Positions 2,508-48,760 of a stretch of DNA of 64,000 nucleotides are shown one piece after another (the stretch's first letter is position 1; the number at the start of each line of letters is the position of its first letter). Made by a program: the position numbers and the translations under genes. Under the pieces are notes generated by a model. It saw nothing but the letters and a program-made list of their open reading frames with translations. It was not told the origin of the DNA and ran no database searches. Source of the stretch: Haliotis asinina (taxonomy: Eukaryota > Mollusca > Gastropoda > Lepetellida > Haliotidae). The DNA lies in contig NC_090281.1 in the NCBI RefSeq assembly GCF_037392515.1, positions 55,530,753 through 55,594,752 on the forward strand, in the 5' to 3' direction.

Positions 2508-2695
2508 GTATGTGTACTTGTAGGACATGAAACTAATTTGAGTAGCTGTAGGACGGGACACTAATAATTAAGTGTACCTGTAGGAGGTGACACTAATATG
2601 TGTGCCTGTCGGACGGAACACTAACATGAGCATCTGTAGGACGTGACACTAATATGTGCAGCTGTAGGGGGTGACACTAATATGTGTACCTGGAC
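2508..2695 (+). repeat. 28-bp minisatellite, block 1
   Basis: About six diverged copies of a 28-bp unit. Its core reads gacactaatatgtgtagctg, and the unit begins with taggacgtg. It is the same unit as the blocks at 4696, 5822 and 6857. Confidence 0.9.
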
Positions 2696-4695: not shown

Positions 4696-5400
4696 TGGCT
4701 GCAGGGCGCGACACTAATATGTCTACCTTTAGGACGGGACACTAATATGTGCGTCTGTAGGAGGTGACACTAATATGTATACCTGCAGGAGGTAACACTA
4801 ATACGTGCATATGTAGATGGTGACACTAGCATGTATATCTGTATGACTGGACACTAACGTTTGTACCTGCAGGAAGTGACACTGATATGTGTAGCTATAA
4901 GACGTAACACTAATATGTGTAGCAGGATCATGAGACACTAATATGTGTACTTGTATGAGGTGGCACTAATATGTCCATTTGTAGGACGTGACACTAATAT
5001 GTGTAGCTGTAGGACGTGACATTAATATGTGTAGCTGTAGGACGGGACACTAATATGTGTAGCTGTAGGACGTGACACTAATATGTGTAGCTGTAGGACG
5101 GGACACTAATATGTGTAGCTGTAGGAAGTGACACTGATATGTGTACCTGCATGTTGGGACACTAATATATGTATCTGCAGGACGCGACACTAATATGTGT
5201 AGCTGTAAGATGTGACACCAGTACGTGTACCTCTGTAGGACGTGACACTAAAGTGTGTAGCTGTAGGACGGGACATTAGTATGTGCAGCTGTAGGACGGG
5301 ACACTAATATGCTAATATGTGCATCTGTAGGAAGTGACACTAATATGTGTAGCTGTAAGATGTGACAGCAGTATGTGTAGCTGTATGATGGGTGTTACTA
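4696..5400 (+). repeat. 28-bp minisatellite, block 2
   Basis: About 25 copies of the 28-bp unit in tandem. They are most regular around 4970-5120, where adjacent units differ only at a T/G (gacgtgacac versus gacgggacac). Confidence 0.95.
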
Positions 5401-5821
5401 GTGTGTATTTTCTGTATATTTTGTCATTAATGAAGTAATAATTATTATTGGGGCACACACATTCACATAACTGGATGATATACATCACTGCCAAAGCTTG
5501 ATCATCAAAACCCGTCAACGCCTGAATCTACATTATCTGTTGTCAGACCGATCGCTGTGTTTACATTCTGCATAGTTGATTATCTCTCGCATTAAGACTT
5601 TGGTGAGTTTGCTACTAAATATATCTTGTGACCCATTGCCTTAGATTTTGTCTCACTTATATTGTATTTGAAATCTGCATTGTGAAATTGACTTGGGACC
5701 TTGTATACCTTGCTCTCGTTGCATAATAACACATAGTTTGGACGTTTGTGACTTGTCTTTGTTCTGTTTTGCTGGTTCACAAGGGGATTTCTTGCATCGT
5801 TTGTCGCGGTACATTCTTAAC
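5401..5821. other. Unique spacer between minisatellite blocks
   Basis: Non-repetitive sequence of about 420 bp. I see no gene, and it is not found in the other copy of the composite. Confidence 0.5.
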
Positions 5822-6072
5822 CGTAACATGAGACACTGATATGTGTGCTTGTATGAGTTGGCACTGATATGTGTAGCTGTAAGACATGGCACTAATATGA
5901 CATATGATACTAATATGTGTAGCTGTAGGACAGGTCACTAATATGTGTAGCTGTAGGACGGGGCACTGATATGTGCATCTGTAGGGTGTGACACCAATAT
6001 GTGTAGCTGTAGAGGGTGACACTCATATGTATACTTGTAGGAGATGACACTGATATGTATGTCTGTAGGACG
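5822..6072 (+). repeat. 28-bp minisatellite, block 3
   Basis: About nine diverged copies of the same 28-bp unit. They run into the sequence gtgatcacatacttcggatg, which also ends block 1 near 2697. Each copy of the composite therefore starts at an equivalent junction. Confidence 0.9.
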
Positions 6073-6856
6073 TGATCACATACTTCGGATGTTTACGAGT
6101 AGGAAGTGATTGCTTCTGAACAGCAAAGAGAAGGTTTCTTCTTCTGCTACTAGCTCTTCTTCAATGTGGACATTACTGATGTTTCTCTCGGTAAGGCAAT
6201 GTGTTATCCTCCTCATACCTTTTGCCCTCTATACCGCGAGGTGTAACAAGACACCAGAAGGGAATTTTTCATGAATGTGTTCTTGCAGGTGGAACCACGT
6301 TCCGTCTTCCTGCACATCCCGGTACATGAGACTGAAAACTGACACATCGTAGATGACGTCCATTATCAATCGAAATTTCCACTTGACTTACACCAGCTCG
6401 TGGGAAGGTGTCCTCGTTAAAAGCTATAAGAATATCAAGTGACTGATCTATTTATGTGAACCCAAAGAACCAAAATGTGTCTTGTGCCAAAATGTATAAC
6501 ATGTACGATAAGCGCGGATCAACCAGGAACATATACAGTGTTATTCACATTCACTCAAATATCCTTCACCCGACCGTAAGAAGCAATTGTTGGTTTTCAA
6601 TCAGCTCGCCCGAATACTTTTATCCAAGTAAATGGCTTCCTGTTAAATTTGGTTCCTCCTCCTGATTCTCCTTCCCAGGTTTGGGTACGACATTATATCA
6701 TCTACCTTGTACCCCTAGTCATCTCATGTTAAATATCCGGGTTGTCATGTGCATGCCTCAGTTACATCATCCCCGTGTGAATATGAATTTGGTGTTTGAT
6801 GCATAAAAGGTGGGTACATATGACATATGTATGACTGTATGATTTAACAGATCTGC
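6060..6856 (+). repeat. Long spacer segment, copy 2 of a duplicated composite
   Basis: Near-identical to 2690-3345 plus about 4515-4695, with the middle 1.17 kb absent at the junction near 6735. The stretch at about 6230-6390 is identical or nearly so to 2870-3010, whereas the flanks differ by scattered changes and small indels. Confidence 0.85.
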
Positions 6857-7575
6857 GTGCCTTTAGGACGGGACATTAATATGTGTAGCTGTAAGACGTG
6901 ACACTAGTATGTGTACCTGTATGATGAGACACTAATATGTGTACTTGTAAGAGGTGGCACTAGTATGTGTACCTGTATGATGAGACACTAATATGTGTAC
7001 TTGTAAGAGGTGGCACTAGTATGTGTACCTGTATGATGAGACACTAATATGTGTACTTGTAAGAGGTGGCACTAGTATGTGTACCTGTATGATGAGACAC
7101 TAATATGTGTAGTTATAGGACGTGACACTAATGTGTGTAGCTGTAAGACGTGACACTAGTATGTGTACCTGTATGATGAGACACTAATATGTGTACTTGT
7201 AAGAGGTGGCACTAATATGGGTATCAGTAGGACGTGACACTAATATGTGTAGCTGTAGGACGTGACACTAATATGTGTAGCTGTAGGACGTGACACTAAT
7301 ATGTGTAGCTGTAGAATGTGACACTAATATGTGTAGTTGGACACTGGTATATGAAGCAGGATGATGAGACACTAATATGTGTACTTGTAAGAGGTGGCAC
7401 TAATATGTGTATCCGTAGGACGTGTCACTAATATGTGTAGCTGTAGGACGTGACACTAATATGTGTGACTGTAGAGGGTGACACTAATATGTGTGTCTGT
7501 CGGACGTGACACTAATATGTGTAACTGTATGACGTGACAAAGATACCTGAGTCTGTAGGGCGTGACAAATGTGTG
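6857..7575 (+). repeat. 28-bp minisatellite, block 4, with a 56-bp higher-order unit
   Basis: About 25 copies of the 28-bp unit. From about 6909 to 7100 the units alternate as A-B pairs: one carries tgtatgatgagacac and the next tgtaagaggtggcac. This makes a 56-bp dimer repeated almost perfectly about four times. It fits recent amplification of a two-unit block by unequal exchange or slippage. Confidence 0.93.
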
Positions 7576-8800
7576 TGTCAGTATTACTTGACTTGGCCTA
7601 AATCCATGTGAATAAACACGTCATTTCCATAATCGAAAGAAAGTTTAGACTGGACAGAGCATTTTCTCGAGAGAGAAAATTGGGTGCATCCACCAAATCA
7701 GTTGAATGATAATCACCCCGTTGTTGCCCTGTTGCACTGGTGGCTTTGATAGATTTGGAATTCTGAATAAAATATTTTTGGCGCTTCCATGGCCATTTGC
7801 CCCAAGCACATGATGCTGTAGCACAGAAACAAAGATACGCATAGACGGATCCAGGTGAGGGGATGAAATCAGATTCGATCTGTGCATGTCTAACCAGACC
7901 TGCCTGAGGGGGAAACGTCACTTAACAAGGAACAAGGAAGTACATTATGTACTGTTGATCCGACATTTAGTCTTTCAGAATCATTCATGTTTTAAAGATC
8001 CTGGGAATTAGATTTCCACTCACGTAGACGATTTCCGCACTGTTGGCAGAACACAGCATTCTGTAGTTTTCAGGGTTGTTAAATATTGCCAAACAACAAC
8101 TGTATCAATGCAGCAGAGTCCTTGCGTACGGGGGACCTATGTTACTAGTATTCATTGCCTGCACAAGACGTAAATCACAAGTGGACGCTACAGCTAGGTC
8201 ACAACTCAAGAGAGAACAAATTGTTTCAACTACTCCTGCCAACAAAACTAGATTTTACCCCCATCCTCACGGCATTGCATATCGACTTGTCAGCCAGCTC
8301 ATGCCATTCTGTCATTTTAATTAATTACTCTTATTCACGTTAATGCATATATACATTAATAACAATAATTTGTCACTTCATGAACATAACCAAACTGTCC
8401 GTGCACGTGCATATTGACGCTTAAACACTGTAGGAACATAAATTACGTTTCCAAAAACAAGGAGTCTCAAACTTGTAATAAACAAAACAAGAACACGAAA
8501 AACCGACTCGAAACAAGGCTGAATGAAACAAGAAACAATATCTCCTGAATAGAACTACTTTGCTTTAAATACCAGCCATCAAAGCAATAAAAGGCAAAAT
8601 TCAGAATTCAAAAATGAAAACATCATCAAAGAACACTACTTTTCCGAGTCATTCATTCCACTTGGACCAAGTTAAAAATTAGGACGGAATGGAAAAAAAT
8701 AGAGGGAAAAGAGAAATAATTTCAAATTAAAGTAAAATAGAGTGACTGAATTAAGCTTCACACTGTAATATAACGATACCAGGAAATGGGTTTCGCATAT
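7576..8800. other. No gene recognised
   Basis: Only frames of about 107 codons or fewer, without recognisable domains (for example minus strand 7921-7598). I see no repeat family and no splice-bounded exon. Confidence 0.45.
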
Positions 8801-14800: not shown

Positions 14801-17800
14801 TGTTTTTCAGTGAACATATTTCAGTTTCGAAATGACAATATAACCAGTTCGTGAAAATGTAGTGTGCACCCTCCCAAGTATCTGAAAAGTGTCCAAACCC
14901 CTACCTGATATGTTAAAAAGGCCCTGGGCCGACTCTCTAGCTGTGTTGGTAAGGTTAGATTGAACACTTTTACAGATGCGAATTTTGTTCGCATCTGATC
15001 TGATGTATGATAGCAGATGTGATGCAGCAGTTCACGGAAGCAGTTGGTCTGCTGAATACGTAGCTGCTCAAACCCATGAACAGGATTAGTCTTCAGCAAC
15101 ACATGATTGTCGTAAGAGGCGACTAACTGGACCGGCTCGTCAGGTTCGCTGAATTGTTTGACAGGTGTCATCATATCCCATTTGCATAGATCGATGGGCA
15201 CCATCATGTTTGATCGTTGGGTTGTCTGGTCCAGACTCTAAACATGTCATCGTATCCGATTTGTGTAGATCGATGGTCATCATCATGTTTGATCGTTGGG
15301 TTGTCTGGTCCAGACTCTAAACATGTCATCGTATCCGATTTGTGTAGATCGATGGTCATCATCATGTTTGATCGTTGGGTTGTCTGGTCCAGACTCTAAA
15401 CATGTCATCGTATCCGATTTGTGTAGATCGATGGTCATCATCATGTTTGATCGTTGGGTTGTCTGGTCCAGACTCTAAACATGTCATCGTATCCGATTTG
15501 TGTAGATCGATGGTCATCATCATGTTTGATCGTTGGGTTGTCTGGTCCAGACTCTAAACATGTCATCGTATCCGATTTGTGTAGATCGATGGTCATGATG
15601 CTGGGTACTGGGTTGTCTGGTCCTGGACTATTAAGCAACAGACGTAGCGGCGCGCATGAAGGTATTTACCTTAACCCTTGTATCCCACGAGGACGAACTG
15701 TCAGTAAGAATCGTGCTTCCGTGTGTACCTCTGTATACAGAGGCTGACCTTTGTCACCGTCACGCTTCACGTCTCCCACACCGTGCACGATTCGTTGGAC
15801 TGCAACACCGGATGTACTCTAAGCAAGTACTCACAACTCGCCATTATCATTCGTGAAGGGCATTTACACATCAATTTCAGCCGTAGCTATGGTTTCTAAT
15901 CGAGACCCGCTGTGTGGAATGGAAACCCAAGGCTTGGAGCAACATGGTTGACATTTTAGTCCACTTAAGGAAAATACCTAATGTCAGGTTTATGCATATC
16001 AGGCGGTGATTACAAGCCGCTAATTGGATATTGAGTTCAAGGTCAAATTTAAGAGTTGCGGACCCCTGAAATATATTGATACTAATCGCATATTACTTCT
16101 TCCACAGGAACTTTGTGCTTCTGTTCTAGCATTGCATATTAACATATAAATGGCATTCTTGTAAATGAGTATCCATCAGCCTGCTGGAGATCGGTACTGT
16201 CAGGCGTGCTCCATTGCTGTGCTGTACGATAAGTCCCTAGATGCGTAGTAATTCTTTTCTAAGAATAGACAGGGCTGGAAAGCTGTATAGCGAGGACACT
16301 CAAACTCACACCCTCACACACACACACTCACCCACATACACACATGTGTATGCATATATTGCTAGAATGATGAGAATCATCATCATCGGCTAATGTTTAC
16401 ATTGTCATGGACACAGGTATCCGCATTACTTCATGTGTGAAATATGTGTCGAAAACTGACATATTGACGGTTGAGCTTAAATGGTCATTTTTGTTAGCAG
16501 AGGATAATAATTTACATTTCACACAAAAAAGAAACCATGAAAAACTGTTCATCCAGTTGGTAAATCCAAAGGTTTTGGTGTGTTGTCAGTCATTGGTATA
16601 ATTACGTCATCTACAAGCCCGACCGGTGCAGTGGACGGAGCGTTTGTCAGGAGAGATATAGGTTGATGGTTCAATCTCAGGTCCCTTTAAATCAAAATAC
16701 TTAAATCAATCTCCAGTTTAACAGACCGCCTTGAGCTCGGCGAACAGGGTGTCAAATAAGGTCAGTAGGGCGTGTCTTGTAGTTGTGGAAATGGAGTATG
16801 GTAGACTAACGCGTTTTCCATGATTATATATAATTTTGAAAAAAACAAATAGTTCCTTTAAATTTGAAAAGTAGTCTCAGTGAAACAGGAGCTTCAGAAC
16901 CTGATCAGGAGCTTAGGAAATTGCATCATTTAGGGCTTTCGCAATGAACATTGCGAAAAAAGAATGCGGGAATGTGAGAGACTAAAGGGAAAGCGAAGCA
17001 ACCCATGCTTGTCATAAAAGGGACTTTGCATGTCATAAAATGCGTCTAACGAGATCTGGTGGTCACTCGCTGACCTGGTTGACACTGGTCATCGGTTCCC
17101 AATGGCGCAGATTGATGTTCATGCTGTTGATCAGTGGATTTTCTGGTCCAGGCTCGATTATTTAAAGACCGCCACCAAGAAGCTGGAATATTGCTGAGTA
17201 AAACTCAACTTATTCACACTCACGAAAGGGAAACGCGGTTCAGTATTACTGTGGGAGACCAATTAAAGGGAAACGCGGTTCAGTATTACTGTGGGAGACC
17301 AATTAAAGGGAAACGCGGTTCAGTATTGCTGTGAGACAGCGACATTGTGGTCCACTGCCCAGCTCCAACATCAACACGCGCACATATATCAGCACACCTA
17401 GCTTAACCTAGCTAGTGGAAAGACGTTTTGAATAAGCTTACAATTTGAAAAGCTTCGTGTTACATTGAAAAAAAAACAACCTTTTGATAAAAGACGTACG
17501 TGTCTAACCGCGCAGAAAGGCATGACGCATTACAGACGGTTGTATTATGTATTGGAGGTACTGGAGGTGAAAGATTTCGCAATTGAAGTCAGCGACGATT
17601 TGGCTCTGTGCCAAAACGTTGTTTATTGGCTGACTGAGCGGACGATGTCGCAATCGCATTTCGCAACGAATTGTCCCTTTTCCACGATGTTGGGCGTTCT
17701 TGCGTTCAGTGAACTGTAGCAAAACCTAGGTAAATGCGCAGTGACCCAGTTAACCCCGATTTCACCTCAACAATGTCACGATATAGCTCGATCAGTGTGG

Positions 17801-28996: not shown

Positions 28997-31900
28997 ATGA
29001 GTGTAGGTAGGTTGTATTCAATTCATTCTTAAGCAGAAATAAGGAAGAAATAGTATTTTGTGTAGTAGTGGACGTTTATAGCGTCGTTCGTCCATGTTCA
29101 CTTGATAAAGTCAAGTTTAGATGTGCAATAGATCATTTATAAACATCTATATATCGGACTTACTTATCTCAGTGTTTTTTGTTGTTGTTGTTGTTGTTGT
29201 TGTTTTCATTTTTTCCCACTTGGCCTCACAAAATAAAAATGGTTTAGAAATGAACTATGAAATACCAATGTCCATTAACGGGAATTCGGGCGCATTTTTG
29301 ACAGTGTGTCTCCTAATTTCGTGACATTCCGAACCGTGAGGGCGTATCTAAATCGGGTCCTCCAAACTTCATCCTGCATTTTATTTCACATCAAAGACGA
29401 AAGTCACAGTCTGTCTAGATTTTATAGCCTAGCTGATGCTTATGAACATAGATTAAGAAATTTACTCAGGGACAATCAGTTTTACAATTGTTTGTCGAAA
29501 TATGGTCATTACAGAAAACTAATCCATGTAACCAGAATTATACAAAGGAAAGGAATCACTTGAACATGATTACTGGCCAATGTTAAATTATTCACCTGTG
29601 TATCAAAACTGACCTGTGTTACATTAGTCACTTTCTGACCTTTGTTAACTTACTCTATTGTATATCATAACTGCGTTAAATTACTATTGCTATGTGACTG
29701 AGACCTGCCATCCTTATTTAATATATTAACCAGTATCCATCATACGAAAGGCGTTGGAAATTAATTAAAAACCAGTTTCCATTGATAAATCAGAATTAGT
29801 GAAGTTAATAAAATTAACATACACCCTATATATCAATGAGACTAAAAAAGTTGAAACATCTATAGATCTATATTTTGTAACAGTTGCATTTATGAGGTGA
29901 ATAGAGATATTGGAGATTGGGTTTGTGTTTGGGACCTTGTCGACCTTATTTTATTTTTAATCAGAAGACTAGTGCAGTTTAATATATTCAGGCAGTTTGC
30001 GTTCATATGGATTGCCAGTATAGTAGTGTGACAAAGCAGAATAACTGGCCTTAATATATTTGATGTGTGCACAGGGAAGAAGTAATATTTCAACATCTCG
30101 ATTCTGAAATGAACACATTTACAGAAAAAGACAGTTCCTAAATTATATTCATAAAATATAATAGGGACCTTTTCTTTGTTCCGAGAATCTGGGGATTTGA
30201 CTCATGTTCTAGACTTGCAGTGGTTATGCCTGTTTCAGGATCTGTGTGGCAGACTAAGTTTTGACATACAGTGTTGTTGTTGGTTTATCTATTTATTTTT
30301 TCCATTTGACATATTAAGTTATCAATATTTGATCATGTGCATTTGCTAAGCGGCTATTACATTTTAATATATTTCCCTATTTGCAATTTTTCCACAAAGT
30401 CAGATGTCAGCTTGATGTCTACTGGTCTTCAACCTTTCAAGATTTTCTATTTTGCAAATGTAAAAAAGAAATATAATTCAGCCATTCTGTTTATCTTTCG
30501 GCGATAATGTTGACTGAAAACCTGGTGTAGAATTTGCAGAATGTGCCTCAAAGCACTTGTACATTTATATCAGACATCATATTGCACTGTGCATTTATAT
30601 TTGAACTTAATTGGTTAACATTTATCATACCGAACGCTGTGAACCTTCAGTAAATGAAGCCTTTCAATGACATGTAGAAGTGTGACACATAAAGGTGGGT
30701 TATTTGTGGATTTCAGACATAAATGGAAACACACCTGAAAAAGGAGCAAGAATATATTTGAAACGTCGTTTTTGGTACCCATGAATTTCGTTCGTCAGTT
30801 AATGAAATGGTCAAGGGGAGATAAGTCTTCCTATATGCGGCAAAGCTTACAATCTAATACACTATTCATGGCATTTTTATTGGAGGTCCCCCACCTTCAT
30901 ATGGACAGGCCACGGCTGGCTTCGCCCCACCCATGCAAGGATACGCCCCACCCATGCAAGGATACGCCCCACCCATACAAGGATATGCCCCACCTGTGTC
31001 AGGTTACGCCCCACCTCTGTCAGGTTACGCCCCACCACCACCACAAAGTGGAATGCAAGCCTCTACCAACAACAAAGTGACGGTGAGTAAGTCAACGATA
31101 GGCCGTTGTGAAGGACAGTTGTCTAATCTGAATAAAACATATGAGCAGACTGGCGCCTTCAATTTAGCAAATTGTGATCAGTGAAACCTTGAAACTGTAA
31201 ATAGGGAAGGGACGATAATCTATAGCAGTAATTATCCAAGACAGGTAATTGTGAAAGTGTGTTTAATGATTAAACGACGACATTCCTATAATTACAATGT
31301 CATGATTGTTCTGGAATTTCAAAACCCGGACCACGTGGAACGCATTTTAACAGGTCGTAACAGTTCAGCCCCCAAGAAGAGAACCGCTATCCCAACCGCC
31401 CCCTGACCACATGAAGCTAGCCTACATCTCCTGCCTCTTCTGCCCCCTGGTGGCTCTTGCTGCCATCAGTGCTGCGCGTCATGTAAGTGTGAGCATTATT
31501 GTGTTGACAGTGCTGTCAGAGAGTATCTGGCTGGATATTGTGTTGACAGTGCTGTCAGAGAGTAACTGGGTGGACATTGTGTTGACAGAGCTGCCTGTGA
31601 ATAAGGATGGATATCAGTATGGTGACAGAGCAGTCAGAGAGTATCAGGGTGGAAATTGTTTTGTTAACAGAACTGTTGGATAATAAGGGTGGATATCATT
31701 ATGTTGACAGAGCTATCCGAGAATATTAGGGTCGGAATTATTGTGTCGACAGAGCTGTATGACAACATCAGGGTTGACATTATTGTGTTGACAGAGCTGT
31801 ATGACGACATCAGGGTTGACATTAGTGTGTTGACAGATCCTTCGAAGATCATCAAGTTGGGCATTATGATACTGACGACGGTCGGATAGTATCCAAATGT

Positions 31901-35201: not shown

Positions 35202-38200
35202 TTAACTGTAATAGCCAAATAGAAAGATTGTTAGCATCGAAAGTCCTATGGCGCTAATATTCAACACTGTTTTTGTTGTGTGATTTTCTTCCAAACTTGT
35301 AAATCTCTTCTGTATGGCTGCTCGTTCCTTGGGCGACAGGGTCTGGTTCCTTCTCTGTGTCATCCCGCACAACCACATGGCGATGGTTACACACATGTGT
35401 TTGCCTTTCCCTGTGGGGTATATACAAAACAGGAGCATAATACAAATTTTGATATAAGTCAGTGAAAGAATTTAGATTTAAGTCGCTATCAGCAATACAA
35501 AAGCAACATCACAGCATGGGACTACTGAAGAGCGTTTCTCACGATGTACCGTTGTGGACCAATATTAACATAAGGAAGGTATCTGACTTGTCGGGTAAAA
35601 TTAGGTTAGTATGTCACGGAGTAACCTGACAAAATGACTTGAAACGGTATCCGGATGAATACGTAAGGAAATATATAGACGACGACGATGATGATGATGA
35701 TGGTGACGACGAAGATGATGATGATGATGATGATGATGATAAGACCGACCTCACAATGCAAATAAAAAGCAAGGCATCACATTGCATAAGAATTGTTCAG
35801 ATTGTGCACAAAAGTGCAACATGCAGTATACTGAAATAAGAACATGAGGCAATGACGATACTTACGGCGCTCCAGCTGAGAGTCTTCCTCCTCCATGGCT
35901 GCTGTGCTCTTTTCCGCATCACTGTCCTTTCCTTTCCCAACCGTCTCAAAGTCGTGCTCGTCATCGTCTACGTCAACACCACCCTTTTCTACTTCCGAGT
36001 CTTGACCAACATTATGGCGCGTCCACCATGTTGTGCGCCCAATCTGTATGCAGAATAAACAAAATTTACTTCCATTCTTCCCATTAACGAGATTAGACCC
36101 GTGAATGTCCCGGGTAGAATACGCCTTCATGCTTGCCATAAATGGCGACTATGCTTGTCGTAAGAGGCGGCTAACGGGATCAGGTGGTCAGGCTCGCTGA
36201 CTTGGTCGACACATCATTATTGGTTCCCAGTTGTGCAGATCGATGCTCATGCAGTTGATCACTGGATTGTCTGGTCCAACCTCGATTATTTACAGACCAC
36301 CGCCATATAGCTGGAATATGTGCAGCGTAAAACCAAACTCACTCACTCACTCATTAACGAGATTGGGTGTGGTGTATCAGAAACATAGATACTGCTTGGT
36401 TCTTTTAAATATGTGACTGTCTTCATTCAGACTGTCAAACCACAAACTACGAGAGGAAACTAAGAGTGGTTATAGCATGTTTGAGGAGAAGATGTTGCAT
36501 GTTATCGTTACAGATGTAGGGGATTTGTTCCTTGACGCCAAACATAGCAATATTCCAGGTATATGGTGCATGGCTGTCCGTAAAACCAGACAATCAAAAC
36601 CATTGATAAACAGCATGAGCATCCTACGCAACTGGGATAAGATGTCAACTAAGTCAGCGAGTCTGACCTCTTACGACAAACCCGAAGAACAATTCTTACC
36701 CGGAACCTAAAAGATCTCTCAATTTAGTGTTAATGTGATGCAGATGATAGTCGTGTACACTGAACGTATGCATTTTGTTCTATTTAGGCCAGGAGCATTA
36801 GACATGAGATTGGACACAAATAATAGAAAGCTAAATTTTTCAGGAAAGCTTCAAAACATCATTGCCATGTGCAAAGTACAAAGTATACATTTCACAGCTA
36901 TTTGTTCCTTTACGCCAAACGTAATTTGTTTCTGAGGACATTCCTGTGCGTTCCTTAACACTGACGTTCTGTATTTAAGATACCCCAAATACCCTTTGAA
37001 GCAGCCAGACAATCCTGAAGAGGTCCTAAACTTGCTTATATCCCCTTCCCTCGTATCTCTGCACTTCCTCGTGTACTGGTTTCATATACTGAATTACCAT
37101 GTAACTGGCTTAGAGTCTAACGCATATCTAAGATCCCCCTACCCTACCTGAGCTTCTGATCTGGGCTCCGTGCACATGCTGACAAGAACGATGACTACAG
37201 AGGTGACAACAGCCGAGATCATGGCGAAGTAGAGGAAATGCACATGCTTCAACACTCCTGGTCGAGTGTCTTCCTCTCCGCTGCCACAATACGGGGCTGG
37301 GTACGTGAAATCCACGACCATACGGATTATGCCGACAACCAGCCCGGCGATCAGACCCCAGAAAGCTCCCTATAATGCAACGTGACCGATTCAATTTCTG
37401 GTATGTACGAACAGCAATGTTTTTTCTGTGTTCCATGTATCCCTCGCGATTAAGTTGAGTCGGTCGGTATAGGTTAAATAAAGTCAAATTTAGATTTCAG
37501 TTCTTAGAATCGAGTCGGCGGGCACAGAAAATATGTCTTTCATTCCTATTAGTCGGTAGTAAATTTACAGTCGGTCGGATGGTTAAAAACACAGAAAGTT
37601 TTGTACGGTAAAACATTGTCTGGAGAGTAAGGGTCATTAACAAAGGAAAAACAAACAGTATGATACTGCCATGTTCTGCGAACGAGATTGGATCTGTTTC
37701 TGAATTACAAGACACAAATACAGAAAAAAGTTTCCGGAACCATTGGTCGTTGTTGATTTGGGGGAAGATGACGGTTGAGGAAACTGATCCATCCTTCAAG
37801 ATGTATCTAGACTAACAGCTAGTCTCTGAAATGAACATATTTTACTGAAAAAAACGTTCATAGTGAAATAAAAATAATATAATGAAATGGAGCCCTGAGA
37901 CTTTCTTCATTTTCAGAGACTAAACAAATCTGCAGAGTGATAAGTTCTTGGAATTTCTCAACACATGTAAAGATTCTTATCAACCCATTACTGACACGTC
38001 ACTGAAGGTGTATGTGACAGGCCCCCAACATCACCCTACCCAGCCGGCCCCTACTCCCTCTCAGTGTGGTGTGGGCAGCTCAAGGGAAGTATCAAGTGTC
38101 GCAACCACAGGGCTCAGGGTTAGCATCTCTTGAGACTAACGCTATGGCTTGAAAACTGGATGTATCCAAAACCCCAACAAAGGTATCAAATATAATTTTT

Positions 38201-41200
38201 CTGTCAAATCAAAATACTATGTCTGCATTATGTACGGCAGTTTGATTGAAATCACCTGGAACAGGAGAAAACTGTTGATTGGAAGTAGTAAGGCAGAGCC
38301 TGAAGCTAAGGAAATCTAGACTTGCCACATTTTCTAGACTTGTGTGGTCTTTCTTGGATATATATACTTCAGGTTTGTACGACAGACTAAGATGTATCGA
38401 ACCTGCTCAGATGTCCGTTTCCATAGTAGGGCAAACATAAACAATGTCTGCCAAGGAGGAGCAGTATAGGCCGTCACTGACTGCAGATATCCCCAGAGTT
38501 GCCCTCCTTGGGCTTTCTGCAAGATTGGTAACCACAGAATCCCTATTGCTGTGCAAACGAGTACTGCAACTCGTCCGACTATCATGAGTTCGTTTTCCGA
38601 TGGCATCCTCCTGATCCGAGGCCAGATGTCCATGGTGAACATGCTGCTGGCACTGTTGAAGATTGAGGTCAGGGAGCTCATGAGCGCCGCAAGCAGAGCT
38701 GCTAACATCAGACCGCGAAGACCTTCAACCAATAAACTGAATTACACCTGGATGATCATAAACATCAATTAGCTGTATAAAAGAAAAAGAGCAACCTAGA
38801 AGAATCTGTTAAAGTAAATGCTGAAAGATATAAACCGCATTTCTCGATATTTTTCGTTTTTCAAACTGATTTGAAAACCTGAATAAGTAAAATGAGTAAT
38901 GACAATCTTATATAATGTCTTTTTAAGTCATTTCAGACATCACATGTCTTAATGCCCATGCAAAGTTTAGACTCACTAGTGTAAATATAGTCACTTGCTT
39001 CAGGCCTCTGCTCTAAACTAAGCACATAACATATGGTGAGTGTTTTGAATTTCTAACATTTTGATGGGAAGCATTATACATCGAGTCTGGTCACGGCTTA
39101 GTAGTGAAATAATTATTTAAGTTTTAAGAGGCTTGCTCATTTCCCACCTACCTTCCGGTAAAAGCCTCAACACTAAGATCGGGTAGGCGATATTCGTACA
39201 TCCGGCTCTGTTCTGACACACTTCATAGCATCGCTCAGGTGTGGAACATGCTATCTCGTCTAGAAGGAGATAAAGGCCATTATTGTGTAGTTAACAAATG
39301 AAGTGAATTGTAGCTGCCTTTACCAGGAGGTGTCTTTACAACTAGTGCGGGCGAGTTACATTAAGATTAATCTTACTTAGTCTCTTTTAAACTGATTTTG
39401 TTTATTCCATACCTTGATTTTGACAGCCGTTGATCATTCCAGCATCCCAGTATTCATGTAAACGGGTGTTTCTCACGTGTTTTCTATTTCAGTGATTACT
39501 GTCATGCCAAGTTTCTATCACCAGATAATCTTACTGGAGTATCTTTTACTGCCACGTATCTTTTACTGATGAATTATAAAATATGGAGGCTTGCCAAGAA
39601 GCTGTACATCTTTACTGGTGACAGTAGATTATTTTTATAAATACACAAAGGTGACAATTCGTATAGCAGCACAAAACGTTCTTCCAATTTTTTCAGATTG
39701 TAAGGAATAGCTAACCAATGGCAGGAAGATTGGCGAAAAATCTGATTGTGACATCACTAATGGTAACAAGTGCTCGTGACTTGTAACCAGTGACGTCGCA
39801 TGTCGCCTACAATCCACTGAGATGCCATTTCATTGAAGTGATACCTCAACGAAGCAACGCTTCAAGCTTTGGATCACAAACTAGCGATCAACAATGTACC
39901 TGGGTAGAGGATCCGGCTGACCATCCCTGGAATGATCCACAAGAAGAAGGGTAATATTTTCAGTGCCCCGGCAAACAAGGATCCACCCTTTGCATGACTG
40001 ATGTTCTTAGCCGAGAGAGTCCGCTGGACCATCAACTGAAAGGTCGTTCTCAACTTTATAGTCTGTTTGCCGTAAAAACGGACCGCAATTTCATTTTAAA
40101 GAAAACAGTTCAGCAAATAAAGTGGAATTAGATTGCGAATGATCTTGATTTTACATTGCTGATTGAACATTTAAATCTCAGAAATTTATTCAACATAGGG
40201 TAAAAGTTGTTTTTAACAAACGATCATATCCTATGTTGAATAGAATTCTGGCATTAAAATCTGCAACTGGAAAGGTAAAATAATGAGGAATCGCAATCTT
40301 AAAGTACTTCACTTTATTCGATCTACCTTTTGTTTCAAGTGAAATTCATTGGTACGGGAGGCGGGGAGTGGAGATGATTTTTAGGGAGTTGCATGTGTGG
40401 ATGACTCCCTACCTCCCCAGAACAAAATGGGTGACCCCCATTAATTATGCACGACCTCTACAAAATGAATCTTTGTAGTCCAACTTTTTCTTTCCACAGG
40501 CTGAAAGGCAAAGGTGATTCTAGCCTTCCTTGAAAAGTTTGAATTAACATGGTTATATAACAGGAATGAAACATAGTCTAAACACATAATTATTTGGGTG
40601 TTTTTCGTCACATTAACTGGAAACAAATCTGACCGGAATATTAATTAAAGGTCAAATATATGCAAACAGATACACTGCGGTTGAGTTGTTCCACAATAAT
40701 ATAATAAATGTAATGCTTAGGCACGTCCATGTTGAAGTCCATTAGATGAACCATTTATGAGACAATTACAAAACAGTTCGATGAAATGGTGCAGTACGTA
40801 ATCAAATTCTTTGGGTTTTTTCTTTCACGAACATGTTTTTGACAATACCACTATCATGGTCATGGACAATGACAAGATAATGTAACAGGGATTCGTGACT
40901 GAAGAGGCGAAATTCTGTGTATCTACCTGATCAGTGCACCACACCCACGCAGCTATGATGGTCAGACCAAACACCGCCCCTGGCCACGGAATGTCCCCGT
41001 CCACGGGATCCCTCCAGATGTGCAGAGAATCCTTAGGGGGAAGACCACAGGTGTTGTGCGTGAAGTTAGCTTTAGTGCTGTTGGAGACAGCTGTCAGAAA
41101 ACCATCTTCCAAACCCTCGAAACCGTTGACTTGGAGAATGCCTGACCAAAATCAAACGAACAGGATATGCTATGCGTTTACTATTGACTGTGACGTAAGT

Positions 41201-44200
41201 GGAACACCGCTGTTGTGTTACAAATTAGTTGGTTGGATAGTTTGTTGTTTAACGTCGACCTCAGCAAAATTCTCACTATACGGCGGCTTCTCTGTAAATA
41301 ATCGAGTCTGGACCATACGACGACATGTGTGTCAACCAAGTCAGTGAGCCGGACCACCATCTCTTCGGTCGCTTTTACGTCAAACAATAGGTGCCGAAGA
41401 CCAATTCTAATCCGGACCTTCACGAGTGTACAAACCAGTAGTCTGGCGGTTTTTTAAGCAAGAAAATCAGTTCTTTTGAAACTAACGTTCTACCCCTGCT
41501 CTTTCAAATAATACACCTGTTTTTCGCTTAGGGACGTTAAAGACATGAGGTGAGTGAGTATAGTTTTACGTCGCATTCAGCAATATTCCAACTATATGGC
41601 GGCGGTCTGCAAAACAATCGAGCCTAGACAATCCAGTGATTAACAGCATGAGAATCGATCTGCGCAATAGGGAATCGATGATGTGTATCAACCAAGACAG
41701 CGAGCCTGACCACCCGATCCCGTTAGTCCGCTAATCGCCTCTTACGACAAGCACAGTCACCTCTTATGGCAAGCATGGATTGCTGAAAGCCTATACTACA
41801 TTGTCATCCGCCTGTGTTATTATAGATAATATAATCCAGTATGTTATCATAGATAATCAAAGATTCACCAAACGTCACGCAACAAGTAGGACAAAGGTTT
41901 CAGATTCCAAGGTTCCCGACTAACAGAAACGTTCAAATTTCACATCACCTTTTCTGAGAATCTGCGGCGTTTCGAAGCAGGATCAGCGGATATTGTCGAG
42001 CTAATTGCAATAATGGGTGAGTCTCGTGGCCAACACTATCAGCCTGATATTGCCGGGCCGTTGGTAGAAAACTGTGGCTTTCATCCATATTAAAGGCCCG
42101 GGGTAGAATAGGCCTTCAGTGACCCATGCTTGCCATAAAAGCTTGTCGTAAGAGGCGACTAACAGGATCGGGTGGTCAGGCTCGCTGACTTGGTTGACAC
42201 TTGTCATAAGTTACCAATTGCGCAGATCGATGCTCATGTTGTTGATCACTGGATCGTCTGGTTACAGACCGCTGCCCTATAGCTGGAATATTGCTGAGTG
42301 CAGCGTAAAACTAAACTAACTCACTCACTTTCCCAACGAGAAGGAACAAATCCCTGACAATGCCGTAAGAATTATACAGGTTCTCCTGCAAATGAATTTT
42401 CTACCAATAACGTCGATTCGGACGTAGTAATAAGTATTCGGACATCTGAGGAGTCAACTGTGATACATGAGCGACGAACTTCATCAATGCTGTCCATCAG
42501 TTCAAAACGTCCCAGCTACATGCCTAGCGTATCTGTCTCATGACATCTATGTGCTGACACTCATTACGTAACAAGTGTAAAATACTAAGTGAAATATTTT
42601 CAAACATGGCACTTACGGAATTCATTCATAAGATGTGTACATCTGTGTAATACATAAATATTATAGAAATATTAAAGATCTATAATTGTTTATAAATATA
42701 TACATACACACATATACGTCGATTTGTTTTTCTGGCGTCTATGTGATGTTCAACTTACCTTTGACAGTCAGGACAGCAGCACCCATCAAGATTACAAGTG
42801 TTTGTAGTGTGTCGGTGTACATCACTGCGACGAGACCGCCTGCAATGCGATTTATAGACAAGGATTATTTGATAATCCAAAGAAATAGGGATACAAAATT
42901 AGTGAATACACCCGACAGAAATTGGTTTCAAATATGATCTTCAGTTCAAACATAAAAAGAAAAAATAATATGAAACCCTTACACAATGTATTAGATTGTC
43001 CGAATTGTATCACAGCAGAAAGAATATGTCGTTCACAGGGAATCACTTCGATTCTAGCGATACCTGTACGTATATACAAGTTTATAACTAGAAAACCTAA
43101 CGAGGAATTATTAACGACATGTTTTGGTATATTATATTTTAATGGAGATGGCGTAAAATTGTATCATTCCTCTCATGATAGTAATTTTTTGCAATCTACC
43201 TATGAATGTATATAACAATGTATATAACAGTGTATATAACAATGTGCTGACGTGTGGACAAATTACAATCTAGCTATGACTGTATATAACAAAGTGCTCA
43301 TGAATGGAATATTTACAATGCATCTATGACTGTATATATAAAGGGGCTTGCGTATGGACTATTTACAATCTACCTATGAATGTATATAACAATGTGTTGA
43401 CGTATGGACTATTTACAATCTACCTATGACTGTATATAACAAAAGGCTGACGTATGAACCATTTACAATGTATCGATCACTGTATATAACAATGTGCTGA
43501 CGTGTGAACCATTTACAATGTATCGATCACTGCATATCACCAAGGGCCGACGTATGGACTATTTACAACGTGGCTGTGACTGTATATAACAAAGGGCCGA
43601 CGTGTGGACTATTTACAACGTGGGTGTGACTGTATATAACAAACGGCTGGCGTATGGACTATTTACAACGTGGCTGTGACTGTATATAAGATAAGGCTGA
43701 CGTATGGGCTATTTACAAAGTACCTATGACTGTATATAACAAAGGGCCGACGTGTGGACTATTTACAACGTGGCTGTGACTGGATATAACAAAGGGCCGA
43801 CGTATGGACTATTTACAAAGTACCTATGACCGTATATAACAAAGGGCAGACGTGTGGACTCTTTACAACGTGGCTGTGACTGTATATAACAAAGGGCCGA
43901 CGTATGGACTATTTACAACGTGGCTGTGACTGTATATAAGAAAAGGCTGACGTATGGACTATTTACAATGTACCTATGACTGTATATAGCAAAGGGCAGA
44001 CGTATGGACTATTTACAACGTGGCTGTGACTGTATATAAGAAAAGGCTGACGTATGGACTATTTACAATGTACCCATGACTGTATATAACAAAGGGCCGA
44101 GGTATGGACTATTTACAATGTACCCATGACTGTATATAACCAAGGGCCAACGTATGGACTATTTACAATGTACCCATGACTGTATATAACAAAGGGCCGA

Positions 44201-47200
44201 GGTATGGACTATTTATAATGTACCCATGACTGTATATAACAAAGGGCCGACGTATGGACTATTTACAACGTGGCTGTGACTGTATATAAGAAAAGGCTGA
44301 CGTATGGACTATTTACAAAGTACCTATGACTGTATATAACAAAGGGCCGACGTATGGACTATTTACAATGTAACTATGACGGTATATAACAAAGGGCCGA
44401 CCTATGAACTATTTACAATGTACCTATGACAGTATATAACAAAGGGCCGACGTATGGACTATTTACAATGTACCTATGACAGTATATAACAAAGGGCCGA
44501 CGTATGGACTATTTACAATGTACCTATGACAGTATGTAACAAAGGGCCGACGTATGGACTATTTACAATGTACCTATGACTGTATATAGAGCTGTCACGA
44601 CCAGTATGCTTATGATACACATGTAGAGATTCCAGCCCAGAAGTAGCTGCATGAATAGAGCCCCACAGTAGATTTCAATCTGAAATGGTGATTGAAAATT
44701 AAATGATAAATAAAATTTAACATCTTTATGTCGTCGTGTTAACGGACAAAAACGATATTTTGATAGGTACCACAGCATTTGAAAATGTAAATATTATCTA
44801 CCAATGAGACGAGCACATTTCACAGTCAATGAAAGCGCAATCAAAATCTGAAGAAAAATGTGAACCAGTTACACACCGATATCTTCGTCAAGACATATAA
44901 GAACAGCCCCAAGAGGGAGAGACAGATTCTCAGACGAACTCCCCCGAATCGTTTCATCAGGTACTCCGGCATCGTGAAGGCCTACAGCAGATCAAAAAGA
45001 TGCTATTGCTAAACGATTCACCTGTTTCTAAGGACAAAAAATGTCTGTAGATGTAGCTTATACTAATTCCTTTATTTCGATTGATACTCTATGTTCTCTA
45101 AATATATTACGTTTTTACGGGTTTTTGTAAAAGGTGGACGTGCCGTAAAATGAATGTGGAAATTATACTAATAGCATAAGTTTACAACACACGTAAGAAA
45201 CTGGTTGTTCATAACTTACCCCGCTGGCCACGAAGACTGGTACGAAAAACCACCCAAGACTAATTAGCAGGAATGATGCCTAAAAGACAATGAACTAATT
45301 ACTTCAATGAAAAGGACACGCAACTCTGTTCACAGCGCTAAATAATATGGTTAAAAATTAAAATAAGAGGGTGCAGTCATCAATGGAACTACTTTCAAAG
45401 CACAGTCAACTTTCAAAGCACACTTATTTCCTAAATCGGTGTATTAACCAATATGATAGAGAAACATTAGCATAATAATACTGGGGTTTCTTTCCAGTTT
45501 TCGACGGACGAAAAAAGAGTGCTAAAATAAAGATTCTCCAACAAACCTTTTCCTTTTATGTTACAAAGCTTTACTTCGTAGATAATAAGTAAAAATAATT
45601 TGACAAAATGTTCAAAATAGAGATTATCCAATGCAGCACAAATGCATTTAACTTACAATCCACTCGTAGACCACAACCGAGTACCCGGATGCCGCCCCTG
45701 CACCTGCTAAGCCAATGAACATCGGAGCACCAACATTGCTTGCGAACAAAGATGCCCCTATCTGTAGAGGTATAAGAGAAGCAAAGCTTACTTCATAAAC
45801 TGATCACATGTTAGCTATTGTCCCTGCTTACAAACAGTATCTGTCATCACTACATAGAGTGAAATTAATATTGTTTTCGTCACAGTTAGGTGAATACTAG
45901 CCAACCACAGATGCAACAGTATACTCTGCAAAAAAAGGAAAAAACGGAAAAGTGTTGTTTTTTTTCTGATGTATACTTTATGCATAATATAAATTAACAA
46001 CAGATCATAACAAATTGATAGCAAACGCCGACCAATGAGAGGGGTTGGTTTGACAACACCCCCTAATGCGGCCTTATCGTCCTTGCTATCGTTCAGAATG
46101 GCATGATTTTACCCAAAACATTTGTCTGAATCTACAGGTTTTCTTTTACGAGGACAGTATCCATTGTCGTTATCTGATTGGCTGACTTAGGTCACGTGTT
46201 TGATTTTGACCAGTCGCCATCCTTTACAACAGACTGTCTTGAAAGAGGGTCATTAGAAACCTATCCTTATCCAATAAAATACTCTTGGCAAGGGTACAGT
46301 GATACTGTTGATGTTCAGAGATTTCGAACGATATTCGCAGAGATCTACATTGGTTGCCCATCAGACATCGGGTCAGCTTCTAGTTAGTCGTCTTGACATA
46401 CAGCGCTCTTAATGTTGAATCATCACCTGCTTATTTAAAGGATCTGCTATCGGTCTACCACACAACAAGAACCCTACGTTCTGCCCAGAAGGAGAAACTG
46501 GCTGTTCCGTGAACATCGACAATGGCTGGAGATCGCGCCTTCTCAGTCGCAGCTCCTACCCTGTGGAACACAGTCCCCCTCGACATCAGAAACAGTCTCT
46601 CCCAACTTTTAAGGGAAAACTGAAAACATTTCTTTTCAACTGATGAACTGAAGCAAAGCGACTTCTATCGTGTAAAGCACTACTGAGCCGCTGCATACAA
46701 CTGGAAATAGGGGCTGTACAAAGCAATTATTATTATTAGATCCGCGCTCAAACGAAAGGCTTCACATGTTATTCATACGAAGCTTCTTAAACAGGTATTT
46801 CACTCTGTTAGGAAAATCTGGACATATAAATGTATAAGCCTGCATATTCATTAAAAAATAATTTAAGTTGTAGTCGTATTACTTGAATAATTCTTGAGTC
46901 AACTAAGAGGGCCTTCAATAGGAAGAGCTTTTTTTCAAAGAATAGCAACAAAAGTGTTTTGGGTTTTTTTTATAAATTGCCTGATGTATTTGAAATGCAG
47001 TCATCAACAGAAATTATACAAACACAAAATTAAATAGAGGAAGTTTCATTAGTATTTGATGAAAGTAATGACACTACTTGCTAGGTGTTCTTGATTAGTA
47101 ATGTCTGATTCTATTTCTAGTTGTGGAATCAAAGATGTCCTGAGCAGAAAAGGTCAAATCTTTAACCAGTTGGCTGATCACTTTGTTGAAAATGTCACAC

Positions 47201-48760
47201 GCACTTCAGTGTCGTGGTTAACAATGGCCATGGGACACGTGATACAGAAACGTTTTACTTTCTACATTATTAAAAGAATACATTCCAAGGTTATCTTCGT
47301 GCATTTCATTCAGACGGTTTATTATGACTTTAAATAGTAGCATGCTCTTTTATAAAGTACAAAAATCACACTGATTGAGAGAATGGGTATAACAAACAAT
47401 CATGGTTATACATGCTGTTGAATGAGAGGGGGACAATGTTTGGCAAAAAAAAAAGAAAGATAAAAAAAAGAAAAAACCTGAGCATGAGCATTGAGGGTTG
47501 AGCAAGAATGGAATAAAACTCAAGATATTTCACTTTTCGAGATTACCTTTGATTATACTCAAAACGTGCAATGACAAATAGTGTTTGTAATCTTAATGTG
47601 TTATGATTTTGGCCGTATGTTTCAGAGGACTTGAAACAAAAGAAATACAGACCGGAAACCAGGTCATGTGTTTCCCAGCAAGAAAGTATCCCTGTGCATT
47701 GTTGTTACCGCGTCGTAGACTAGCCTGTGGGGAGAGGAGGTATTAGTGAATGAGTGATCCAAAACTGTAAACATCTAAACGAACTAAAATTGAATGTATC
47801 ACCGAGCCATTGAGACATAAATCCTAACTTCCTTTAACAAGGGCAATCTTTCAAACATATGGCGAATGATAAAACACAATAATCACTTTAGAGGATGTTA
47901 AAATGAGTATTGTTTCACTCTCTCAATTTCTGGTTTAAATGTGACCCGTGAAGGTCACGGGGTAGAATAGGCCTTCAGCAACCCATGCTTGCCATGAAAG
48001 GCAACTATGCTTGTCGTAAGAGGCGACTAACGGTATCGGGTGGTCAGGCTCGCTGACATGTCATCAGTTCCCAATTGCGCAGATCGATGCTCATGTTGCT
48101 GATCACTGGATTGTCTGGTCCAGACTCGATTATTTACAGACCGCCGCCATATAGCTGGAATATTGCTGAGTGCGGCGTAAAACTAAACTCACTCACTCTG
48201 GTTTAAATGTCTGCTTTGGGACCTTAATGTAATAGTAAATGTGATCACTTCTTCATATAAGCCGAGAGTAGGTTATGGGACTGGAAAAAACAAGGATCAT
48301 GATCACGTCGATTCTGAAATTCGAACCAACTTTCGAACACAGCAACCAAAGTATCAAGTCATAATTAAAGCAATTGCCCTCCAACATGTACAGAACTTTG
48401 TCACTGCCAATTGTTGGAAGGTGGTAGAAAGAAATCCAAATACATACATGCAATACCCAACTGGCAAGGAGATAAAATACCAGGTATGTTGAAATAGAAC
48501 TTGACGCGTCCTGTTTTCTTGCTAACACCCAGTCAACCGCCCCATACCAAAACTTCTCGAACGATCAAGTCTGCCATGTTTTAACATGCAAGGGTGATAA
48601 CTCTTAATCCCTCTCCAACAATATCGATATTTAGTTCACAAAAGTCGCTGACGTCATCTAACATCACTGAACGAATACCTACCCATATTCCTATACCCAA
48701 TACCAGCACGAAGTAGCCGGCTACTGCCACGTAGTCTCCGGTCTGTAGTTGCTCAGGCAT
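35202..48760 (-). CDS. SLC5A-family (SGLT-type) sodium/solute symporter, complete 14-exon gene
   Basis: Coding exons 5'-3': 48760-48683, 47724-47653, 45761-45657, 45279-45220, 44981-44877, 44679-44574, 42839-42759, 41141-40927, 40035-39900, 39259-39152, 38722-38403, 37369-37148, 36043-35866, 35410-35202. They sum to 1,995 nt: 664 aa plus stop, in frame at every GT-AG junction. Human SGLT1, as I recall it, is also 664 aa. The start [10 protein letters not shown] has a good context (AAGATGC). SSF signature 1 runs through [10 protein letters not shown]...ALYTVIGGLVA (exons 6/7), and signature 2 is [19 protein letters not shown] (exons 11/12). Na2-site serines S371/S372 and T374 lie in [11 protein letters not shown]. 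By alignment to SGLT1, N59, E83, W270, K300, Q436 and T439 match sugar-site residues, but H83, T287 and Y290 are replaced by M64, A266 and V269. It is a plasma-membrane Na+-coupled transporter with a 14-TM LeuT-type fold. The substrate is uncertain: glucose, another sugar or a polyol. Confidence 0.97.
35678..35743 (+). repeat. (GAT/GAC)n microsatellite in the last SLC5A intron
   Basis: About 20 triplets, mostly gat with some gac and gaa. It lies between exons 13 and 14 of the transporter. Confidence 0.95.
36095..36351 (+). mobile_element. Full SINE-B copy with perfect 13-bp target duplication
   Basis: The element runs from gacccgtgaatgtcccgggt to the (actc)n tail. It is bounded by CATTAACGAGATT at 36082-36094 and 36352-36364. 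This fixes both ends of the family and its orientation: the (ACTC)n tail is 3'. It is in SLC5A intron 12. Confidence 0.95.
36525..36712 (-). mobile_element. SINE-B copy, diverged
   Basis: Order of landmarks: agcaatattccaggtatatg, cattgataaacagcatgagc, cgcaactgggataagatgtc, taagtcagcgagtctgacct, then cttacgacaaa. Confidence 0.8.
36785..36895 (+). mobile_element. Single arm of a foldback element
   Basis: taggccaggagcattagaca through caggaaagcttcaaaacatc to gtgcaaagtacaaagt matches one arm of the element at 56035-56295. The opposite arm is not recognisable here. Confidence 0.75.
41228..41440 (-). mobile_element. SINE-B copy, diverged
   Basis: tcagcaaaattctcactata, ctctgtaaataatcgagtct, caaccaagtcagtgagccgg, ccggaccttcacgagtg. 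Confidence 0.85.
41553..41795 (-). mobile_element. SINE-B copy
   Basis: gtgagtgagtatagttttac, cattcagcaatattccaact, tggcggcggtctgcaaaaca, agcctgaccacccgatcccg, then ggcaagcatggattgctgaa. Confidence 0.92.
42092..42328 (+). mobile_element. SINE-B copy
   Basis: ggcccggggtagaataggcc, taagaggcgactaacaggat, cgcagatcgatgctcatgtt, tggaatattgctgagtgcag, then an actcactc tail. It is in SLC5A intron 7. Confidence 0.93.
43196..44592 (+). repeat. 50-bp minisatellite containing the SLC5A exon 6 splice donor
   Basis: About 28 units of 50 bp, on the + strand tgtatataacaaagggccga followed by cgtatggactatttacaatg and tacctatgac. The right-most unit overlaps the 3' end of SLC5A exon 6 (coding 44679-44574). 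Read on the coding strand, each unit therefore holds the exon's last roughly 15 nt and its donor, ATACAGTCATAG|GTACATTG. About a dozen or more units keep the GT. Others carry GTCACAGCCACG in its place and lose it. Confidence 0.95.
46340..46738 (+). mobile_element. 3' end of a CR1/L2-like LINE
   Basis: From 46345 the frame reads [11 protein letters not shown], then [20 protein letters not shown], then [20 protein letters not shown]. This is the characteristic C-terminal end of CR1/L2-clade reverse transcriptase proteins. It has in-frame stops (after RVSF and after KLAVP) and ends in a (tta)n tail after gctgtacaaagcaatt. It is 5' truncated, a dead copy in the SLC5A intron 2 region. Confidence 0.85.
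47942..48196 (+). mobile_element. Full SINE-B copy with perfect 13-bp target duplication
   Basis: 255 bp from tgacccgtgaaggtcacggg to actcac, flanked by TCTGGTTTAAATG at 47929-47941 and 48197-48209. It is the best-preserved copy for defining the family. It is in SLC5A intron 1. Confidence 0.96.

Follow-up and report, generated by a model that had tools for sequence, protein, structure and literature searches.

In the abalone Haliotis asinina, a 50-bp minisatellite has multiplied an authentic 5′ splice site within a gene of the SLC5 family. The array lies on the minus strand of a 64,000-nucleotide stretch of contig NC_090281.1 (positions 55,530,753 to 55,594,752, assembly GCF_037392515.1; hereafter the window, whose own numbering is used below). 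Its first unit, unit 0, is made of the last 15 nt of exon 6 and the first 35 nt of intron 6 of the gene, with the donor at 44573, and arrays of the same design are found at other splice borders in the genome. We think it probable that this is a passive minisatellite tolerated by splicing, perhaps leaking into unproductive mRNA.

The host gene is intact. Its joined mapped exons match SGLT1 (PDB 7sla) over residues 8-524 (E 6.4e-186) and contain the Pfam SSF domain (PF00474; E 3.7e-123); by this domain, the similarity to SGLT and an open frame it belongs to the SLC5/SGLT sodium-solute symporters. When the donor at 44573 is spliced, exon 6 reads across into exon 7 in frame. Comparison with the nearest paralogue revealed zero stops over 474 codons, with nonsynonymous (dN) and synonymous (dS) divergence of 0.087 and 0.88, respectively, the resulting dN/dS of about 0.10 being an average across both lineages. 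This ratio and the absence of stops suggest that a full-length protein is still made. A pseudogene is ruled out by the SGLT1 match together with the intact and constrained frame.

Tandem Repeats Finder (TRF) places 27.2 indel-free copies at 43231-44588, and in a register counted down from 44588 the array divides into 27 units of exactly 50 nt, beyond which a degenerate tail reaches 43189. The array begins inside exon 6 and spreads into intron 6 only. An earlier note on this DNA had described a 50-bp array starting within exon 6 and a donor at 44573; TRF and the register, which make the last 15 exonic nucleotides part of unit 0, agree with the first statement, and exon/intron mapping with in-frame read-through to exon 7 agrees with the second. 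The same note extended the array to 43196, but 43196-43231 is degenerate tail. The 20-mer ATACAGTCATAGGTACATTG matches 19 times at up to three mismatches, against 0.01 matches expected. G|GT is kept in 13 of the 26 later units (1-3, 5, 7-10, 12, 15, 17, 23 and 24), in line with the dozen or more later donors that had been proposed. These live donors read TAG|GTACAT in four units (1-3 and 12), TAG|GTACTT in three, TGG|GTACAT in four and TAG|GTAGAT in two. Eight units form a donor-dead CACAGCCACG class (6, 11, 13, 14, 16, 18 and 20, plus 19 with one extra change), while units 4, 21, 22, 25 and 26 lost the +1 G by other changes. The idea of two unit classes survives to the extent that there are two main classes, whose majority bases across units 0-20 differ at exactly columns 13, 16, 17 and 20; overall the classes number more than two. 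In units 11-18, live units alternate with dead ones, which suggests that dimers may have been copied. Inspection by eye revealed no evident third-codon-position drift in the exon-derived part, which would be a trace of past exons.

Table 1. Features of the array and its host gene in the window, and arrays or duplications at splice borders in SLC5, myosin and SLC6 genes (e, exon).
Feature	Location	Strand	Unit and copies	Extra units with intact splice dinucleotide	Remarks
SGLT1/SLC5-like gene	37148..48760	-			mapped exons, further 3′ exons lie outside the mapped part; PDB 7sla, Pfam SSF, exon mapping
Exon 6	44574..44679	-			106 nt; final 15 nt, TATATACAGTCATAG, belong to array unit 0
Authentic intron 6 donor GT	44572..44573	-			TAG|GTACAT; computed U1 duplex -5.5 kcal/mol
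Intron 6	42840..44573	-			1734 nt, about 4/5 array
Exon 7	42759..42839	-			starts at 42839
50-bp minisatellite	43231..44588	-	27 full units without indels		G|GT intact in 14/27, real donor included
Degenerate distal tail	43189..43238	-	12-bp sub-repeats
Units 1-3	44389..44538	-			decoy donors TAG|GTACATTG, same as the real one (upstream ACT instead of ACA)
Units 6-20 zone	43539..44288	-			donor-dead CACAGCCACG units (6, 11, 13, 14, 16, 18, 19, 20) interspersed with donor-bearing ones
In-frame TAA	44563..44565	-			met if the authentic donor is skipped (VIGTL*)
Donor array, SLC5	window e6		50 bp x27	13/26
Donor array, SLC5	A3072 e10		38 bp x22	19/21 (20/21 by direct count)
Donor array, SLC5	A77 e11		75 bp x3.9	1/3
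Donor array, SLC5	A8 e7		59 bp x2.1	1/1
Donor array, SLC5	C16 e10		16 bp x4.9	4/4
Acceptor array, SLC5	A18 e6		33 bp x4.2	3/3	at least 24.6 more copies upstream, separated by an insertion
Acceptor array, SLC5	A3034 e12		41 bp x7.6	5/6
Acceptor array, SLC5	A3072 e12		41 bp x32	24/31	repeat common with A3034
Acceptor array, SLC5	A3034 e3		50/54 bp x6.6-6.9	5/6
Donor array, myosin-head gene	L041:492-1000 (G000:C13)		33 bp x15.5	11/15	starts at ATGGAG|GTAAGTAT; unit a multiple of three
Acceptor duplication, SLC6 gene	L047:231-312 (G000:C10)		40 bp, two copies		TTTTCAG|GGATGCG

The unit derives from the exon, as had been claimed, and not the exon end from a pre-existing repeat. When 650 nt of the array were searched against the whole 1.14-Gb genome, only their own locus matched (the search skips very common words), and this single match rules out a dispersed satellite or transposon-borne repeat. 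At the protein level, exons 6-7 match 13 genomic places. Nine paralogous SLC5 genes were fetched and surveyed with the window gene for 200 splice borders, of which 180 could be placed by homology (20 of them in the query gene itself) and 20 lay beyond the reach of the alignments; all 180 placed borders have GT or AG, as expected, with zero shift. Both borders of exon 6 lie at the homologous place in all nine of these same-genome paralogues. In the nearest of them (L005/A87), exon 6 ends CTATACAGTCATTG|GTAAGT and TRF finds no 50-bp array, and matches to the 35-nt intronic part of the unit do not exceed 12 nt anywhere in the paralogue regions (E up to 1). It is because these exon borders are conserved, and the intronic part is unmatched there, that the exon is identified as the source; the same two observations rule out an array that predates the exon end. 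Most likely, the array arose after divergence from L005/A87. Intron gain by tandem duplication was also considered and is rejected, the exon 6 donor being homologous in all nine fetched paralogues.

We propose that 50 nt across the junction of exon 6 and intron 6 (15 nt of exon, 35 nt of intron) were duplicated in tandem, and that the duplicate then expanded into the intron, presumably by slippage or unequal exchange. The exon-adjacent first donor would keep defining exon 6, such that the array would be removed by splicing and the function of the gene retained. By the same logic for donors and acceptors, an exon would stay intact for as long as its exon-proximal site is used. Later donors would be by-products that at most leak into mRNA with a premature stop, which would then be degraded, and the array would grow and decay as other minisatellites do, probably with no selection for it. 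Some leak to units 1-3 is plausible because they closely match the real donor and because human IFI6, discussed below, uses two downstream units of its own repeat.

The extension from each of seven later donors tried gives VIGTL*, and every later donor must do so because any extension includes the TAA at 44565-44563 within its first 50 nt. The near-immediate stop predicted by the earlier note was thereby recovered; its suggestion that redundancy protects splicing is unlikely, since all later donors lead to one and the same truncated frame. Units that preserve the frame, with the repeat retained in the protein, are ruled out here by the 50-nt unit and the stop. With a donor kept in 13 later units and a stop behind each, the array could act as a dosage regulator, in which some transcripts would use later donors, stop at VIGTL* and decay, so that transporter yield would be set by copy number and the balance between live and dead units. 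The real donor is computed to pair weakly with U1 (-5.5 kcal/mol), at a strength like that of the scored live decoy types (-5.3 to -6.4), compared with -9.1 for the homologous donor of the nearest paralogue, and two downstream repeat units of human IFI6 serve as donors to give three mRNAs (according to the available part of PMC4526556). However, equally weak donors are found in the paralogue L008, which lacks this array (-5.5), and at exon 2 of the array-bearing gene itself (-5.4). Paralogues do without the array, and leak would be a cost whose regulated function is putative. We therefore regard a dosage regulator as unlikely.

The earlier note treated the array as a matter of one locus. This framing proved too narrow, as further splice sites of the genome, acceptors among them, show the same arrangement (Table 1). 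Across the ten SLC5 genes, 9 of 180 borders (five donors and four acceptors) lie inside arrays whose unit spans the exon edge and the splice site, and the conserved border is the exon-proximal copy in all nine. Eight myosin regions (25 of 125 exon hits) gave one case, the donor in L041, and eight SLC6 regions (18 of 122 hits) gave one, the two-copy acceptor in L047; in these two families the hit ends mark exon ends only approximately, and stops interrupt some SLC6 hits. The unit lengths of ten arrays examined (50, 38, 75, 59, 16, 33, 33, 41, 41 and 50/54 bp) are for the most part not divisible by three, as would be predicted of intronic arrays.

Two of the SLC5 loci are described here in their own right. 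In a paralogue at L014/L017 (G000:C2:18766414-18766527, minus strand), a 33-bp minisatellite multiplies the exon 6 acceptor, TGTCTGTAG|GTGGAGATGTAT, in about 4 plus at least 25 copies with an insertion between. At L029/L030 (G000:C2:3072001-3092000), a single SLC5 gene carries both a donor array at e10 (38 bp x22) and an acceptor array at e12 (41 bp x32), and the e12 repeat is also present in the neighbouring gene, L027/L028.

Tandem arrays are prone to assembly errors. The window array, however, contains many distinct unit variants in a single 102-Mb contig, its exon and flanks are intact and comparable arrays stand at ten other borders; an artefact is scarcely credible. A further mechanism could operate at the RNA level. 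Of the 13 live later units, 9 read AG|GT, which is also present in other arrays such as A3072 e10 and e12, so the real donor might pair with a later AG, rebuild the junction and thus remove the array stepwise and silently. By eye, the pyrimidine tract ahead of the AG is poor here, and such junctions would be traceless in mRNA; we consider this ratcheting very improbable.

Whether arrays are enriched at splice borders was assessed with a test whose design followed a first look at some of the data. Under a shift null in the SLC5 loci, 9 borders were counted against 3.5 expected (P 0.007), and 7 against 0.90 for arrays of at least four copies (0/2000 shifts). The direction was opposite when any border under any array was counted (9 seen, 21.5 expected), presumably because arrays avoid exons. 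A stricter null was confined to gene bodies and used the unexpanded array length, with a 1.25x correction for exon-free seeding. On this basis, 7 of the 15 arrays of at least four copies lie on SLC5 borders against 1.25 expected (P 3e-4; corrected 1.2e-3, expected up to about 1.6), as do 9 of all 42 arrays against 3.9 (P 0.02; corrected 0.06). Removal of the window array and one homologous e12 array leaves 7 among all arrays (P 0.16) and 5 among those of at least four copies (P 0.014). Myosin and SLC6, both lightly sampled (50 myosin ends), show no significant border excess by themselves: 2 of 14 arrays against 0.53 (P 0.10), and 1 of 5 against 0.23 for at least four copies (P 0.21). When all families were pooled, without the window and with e12 counted once, there were 9 against 4.9 (P 0.06) and, for at least four copies, 6 against 1.6 (P 0.007). 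The excess of arrays at splice borders is suggestive but not shown. As a tentative extension, which we rate as possible though doubtful, splice junctions, both donors and acceptors, might be favoured birthplaces or growth sites of minisatellites in the H. asinina genome, creating a class of genes with multiplied authentic sites whose copy number could differ among individuals and adjust the level of productive splicing.

Several observations weigh against a purely passive array. All four fixed differences between the main classes fall within 8 nt around the donor. The donor GT ranks fourth least conserved of 49 dinucleotides (0.50 intact, compared with a mean of 0.81), and the +1 G has the most inferred changes, tied with column 41, on a tree built from all columns (4 changes; 10 on a tree without the donor block). 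Identity with the real donor spans -7 to +35 in units 1 and 2 and -7 to +16 in unit 3, so local sequence does not account for a preference for donor 0. In eight of the nine other arrays (the exception is A77 e11), the splice dinucleotide is better preserved than the array mean, and the apparent border excess is outside the prediction of simple neutrality. Neither the window array nor the others fit plain neutrality neatly.

The loss of GT in 13 of 26 units, the many changes at +1 and a main dead class that departs from the live class at the four donor-centred columns only would all be expected if selection silenced decoys, donor-dead units being favoured because live decoys harm splicing. Yet the three exon-nearest units are all live, the other arrays tend to keep the dinucleotide (A3072 e10 in 19/21, or 20/21 by direct count) and the alternation of live and dead units as dimers means that the changes are not independent; we judge silencing by selection to be quite improbable. 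The counts for the ten arrays come from a simple register that slips in indel-bearing arrays (A3072 e10, L041 and A77), and with shared ancestry among units and small numbers they are not independent measures of conservation. Given this, and directions that disagree, we draw no conclusion on donor selection. The best explanation is still a passive, splice-tolerated minisatellite.

The closest known system is human IFI6 (6-16, G1P3), where a minisatellite provides multiple splice donors (Turri, Cuin and Porter 1995, Nucleic Acids Research 23:1854, as cited in the available parts of PMC2572611, PMC4526556 and PMC2915984). Downstream repeat units of IFI6 are used in some mRNAs (PMC4526556, in the same part), whereas the donors here are known from sequence alone. 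The two cases are alike in that a minisatellite supplies multiple donors; here the tandem unit holds the exon end and authentic donor, with the exon as its source. They differ in unit length (12 nt in IFI6 and 50 nt here), and also in that every later donor here leads to an immediate stop and half of the later units are donor-less.

Internal tandem repeats in human segmental duplications (mean 30 bp x 4) also occur at exon-intron boundaries and can alter splicing (De Grassi and Ciccarelli 2009; PMC2812944, available part). As described there, these repeats are variable and belong to recent paralogues; half lie in coding exons and some form new introns. In the present case, a conserved junction has instead been duplicated into the intron that it borders. 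Introns can arise when exon segments containing AGGT are tandemly duplicated (Rogers 1989 and Hellsten 2011, as cited in the part of PMC4974935 available); this process likewise yields spare splice signals, but here no new intron has formed and the intron position is conserved in paralogues. The Caenorhabditis elegans intronic minisatellite CeRep25B lies near alternative exons and is linked with splicing choice; it carries regulatory motifs and, in the accessible part of PMC4039745, is described without mention of a copied authentic splice site. Among the titles and abstracts listed from the open-access literature, which included IFI6 papers and human boundary repeats, none reported splice-site minisatellites in abalone or other molluscs, or multiplied acceptors, which is weak evidence of absence. 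Taken singly, the window array is a further instance of the IFI6-type phenomenon; what deserves attention is that the arrangement recurs in several genes of one genome, at donors as well as acceptors.

The window contains other repeats. Several separate arrays built on one related 28-bp unit (TGTAGGACGTGACACTAATATGTGTA-like) spread across 5 kb at 2509-7583, an apparently very young 79-bp array (5.5 copies, 98% identity) lies at 15166-15596, and on the plus strand a 21-bp repeat within an open frame at 30858-31181 encodes GYAPPMQ-like heptads.

Arrays of near-identical authentic sites are natural tests of how the spliceosome chooses among equals. Should the SLC5 frequency (9/180 borders) hold elsewhere, many such tests would be available within one genome, at 5′ and 3′ intron ends alike, and variation in copy number would possibly provide a built-in dose series. 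Such arrays may also confuse gene annotation and short-read mapping.

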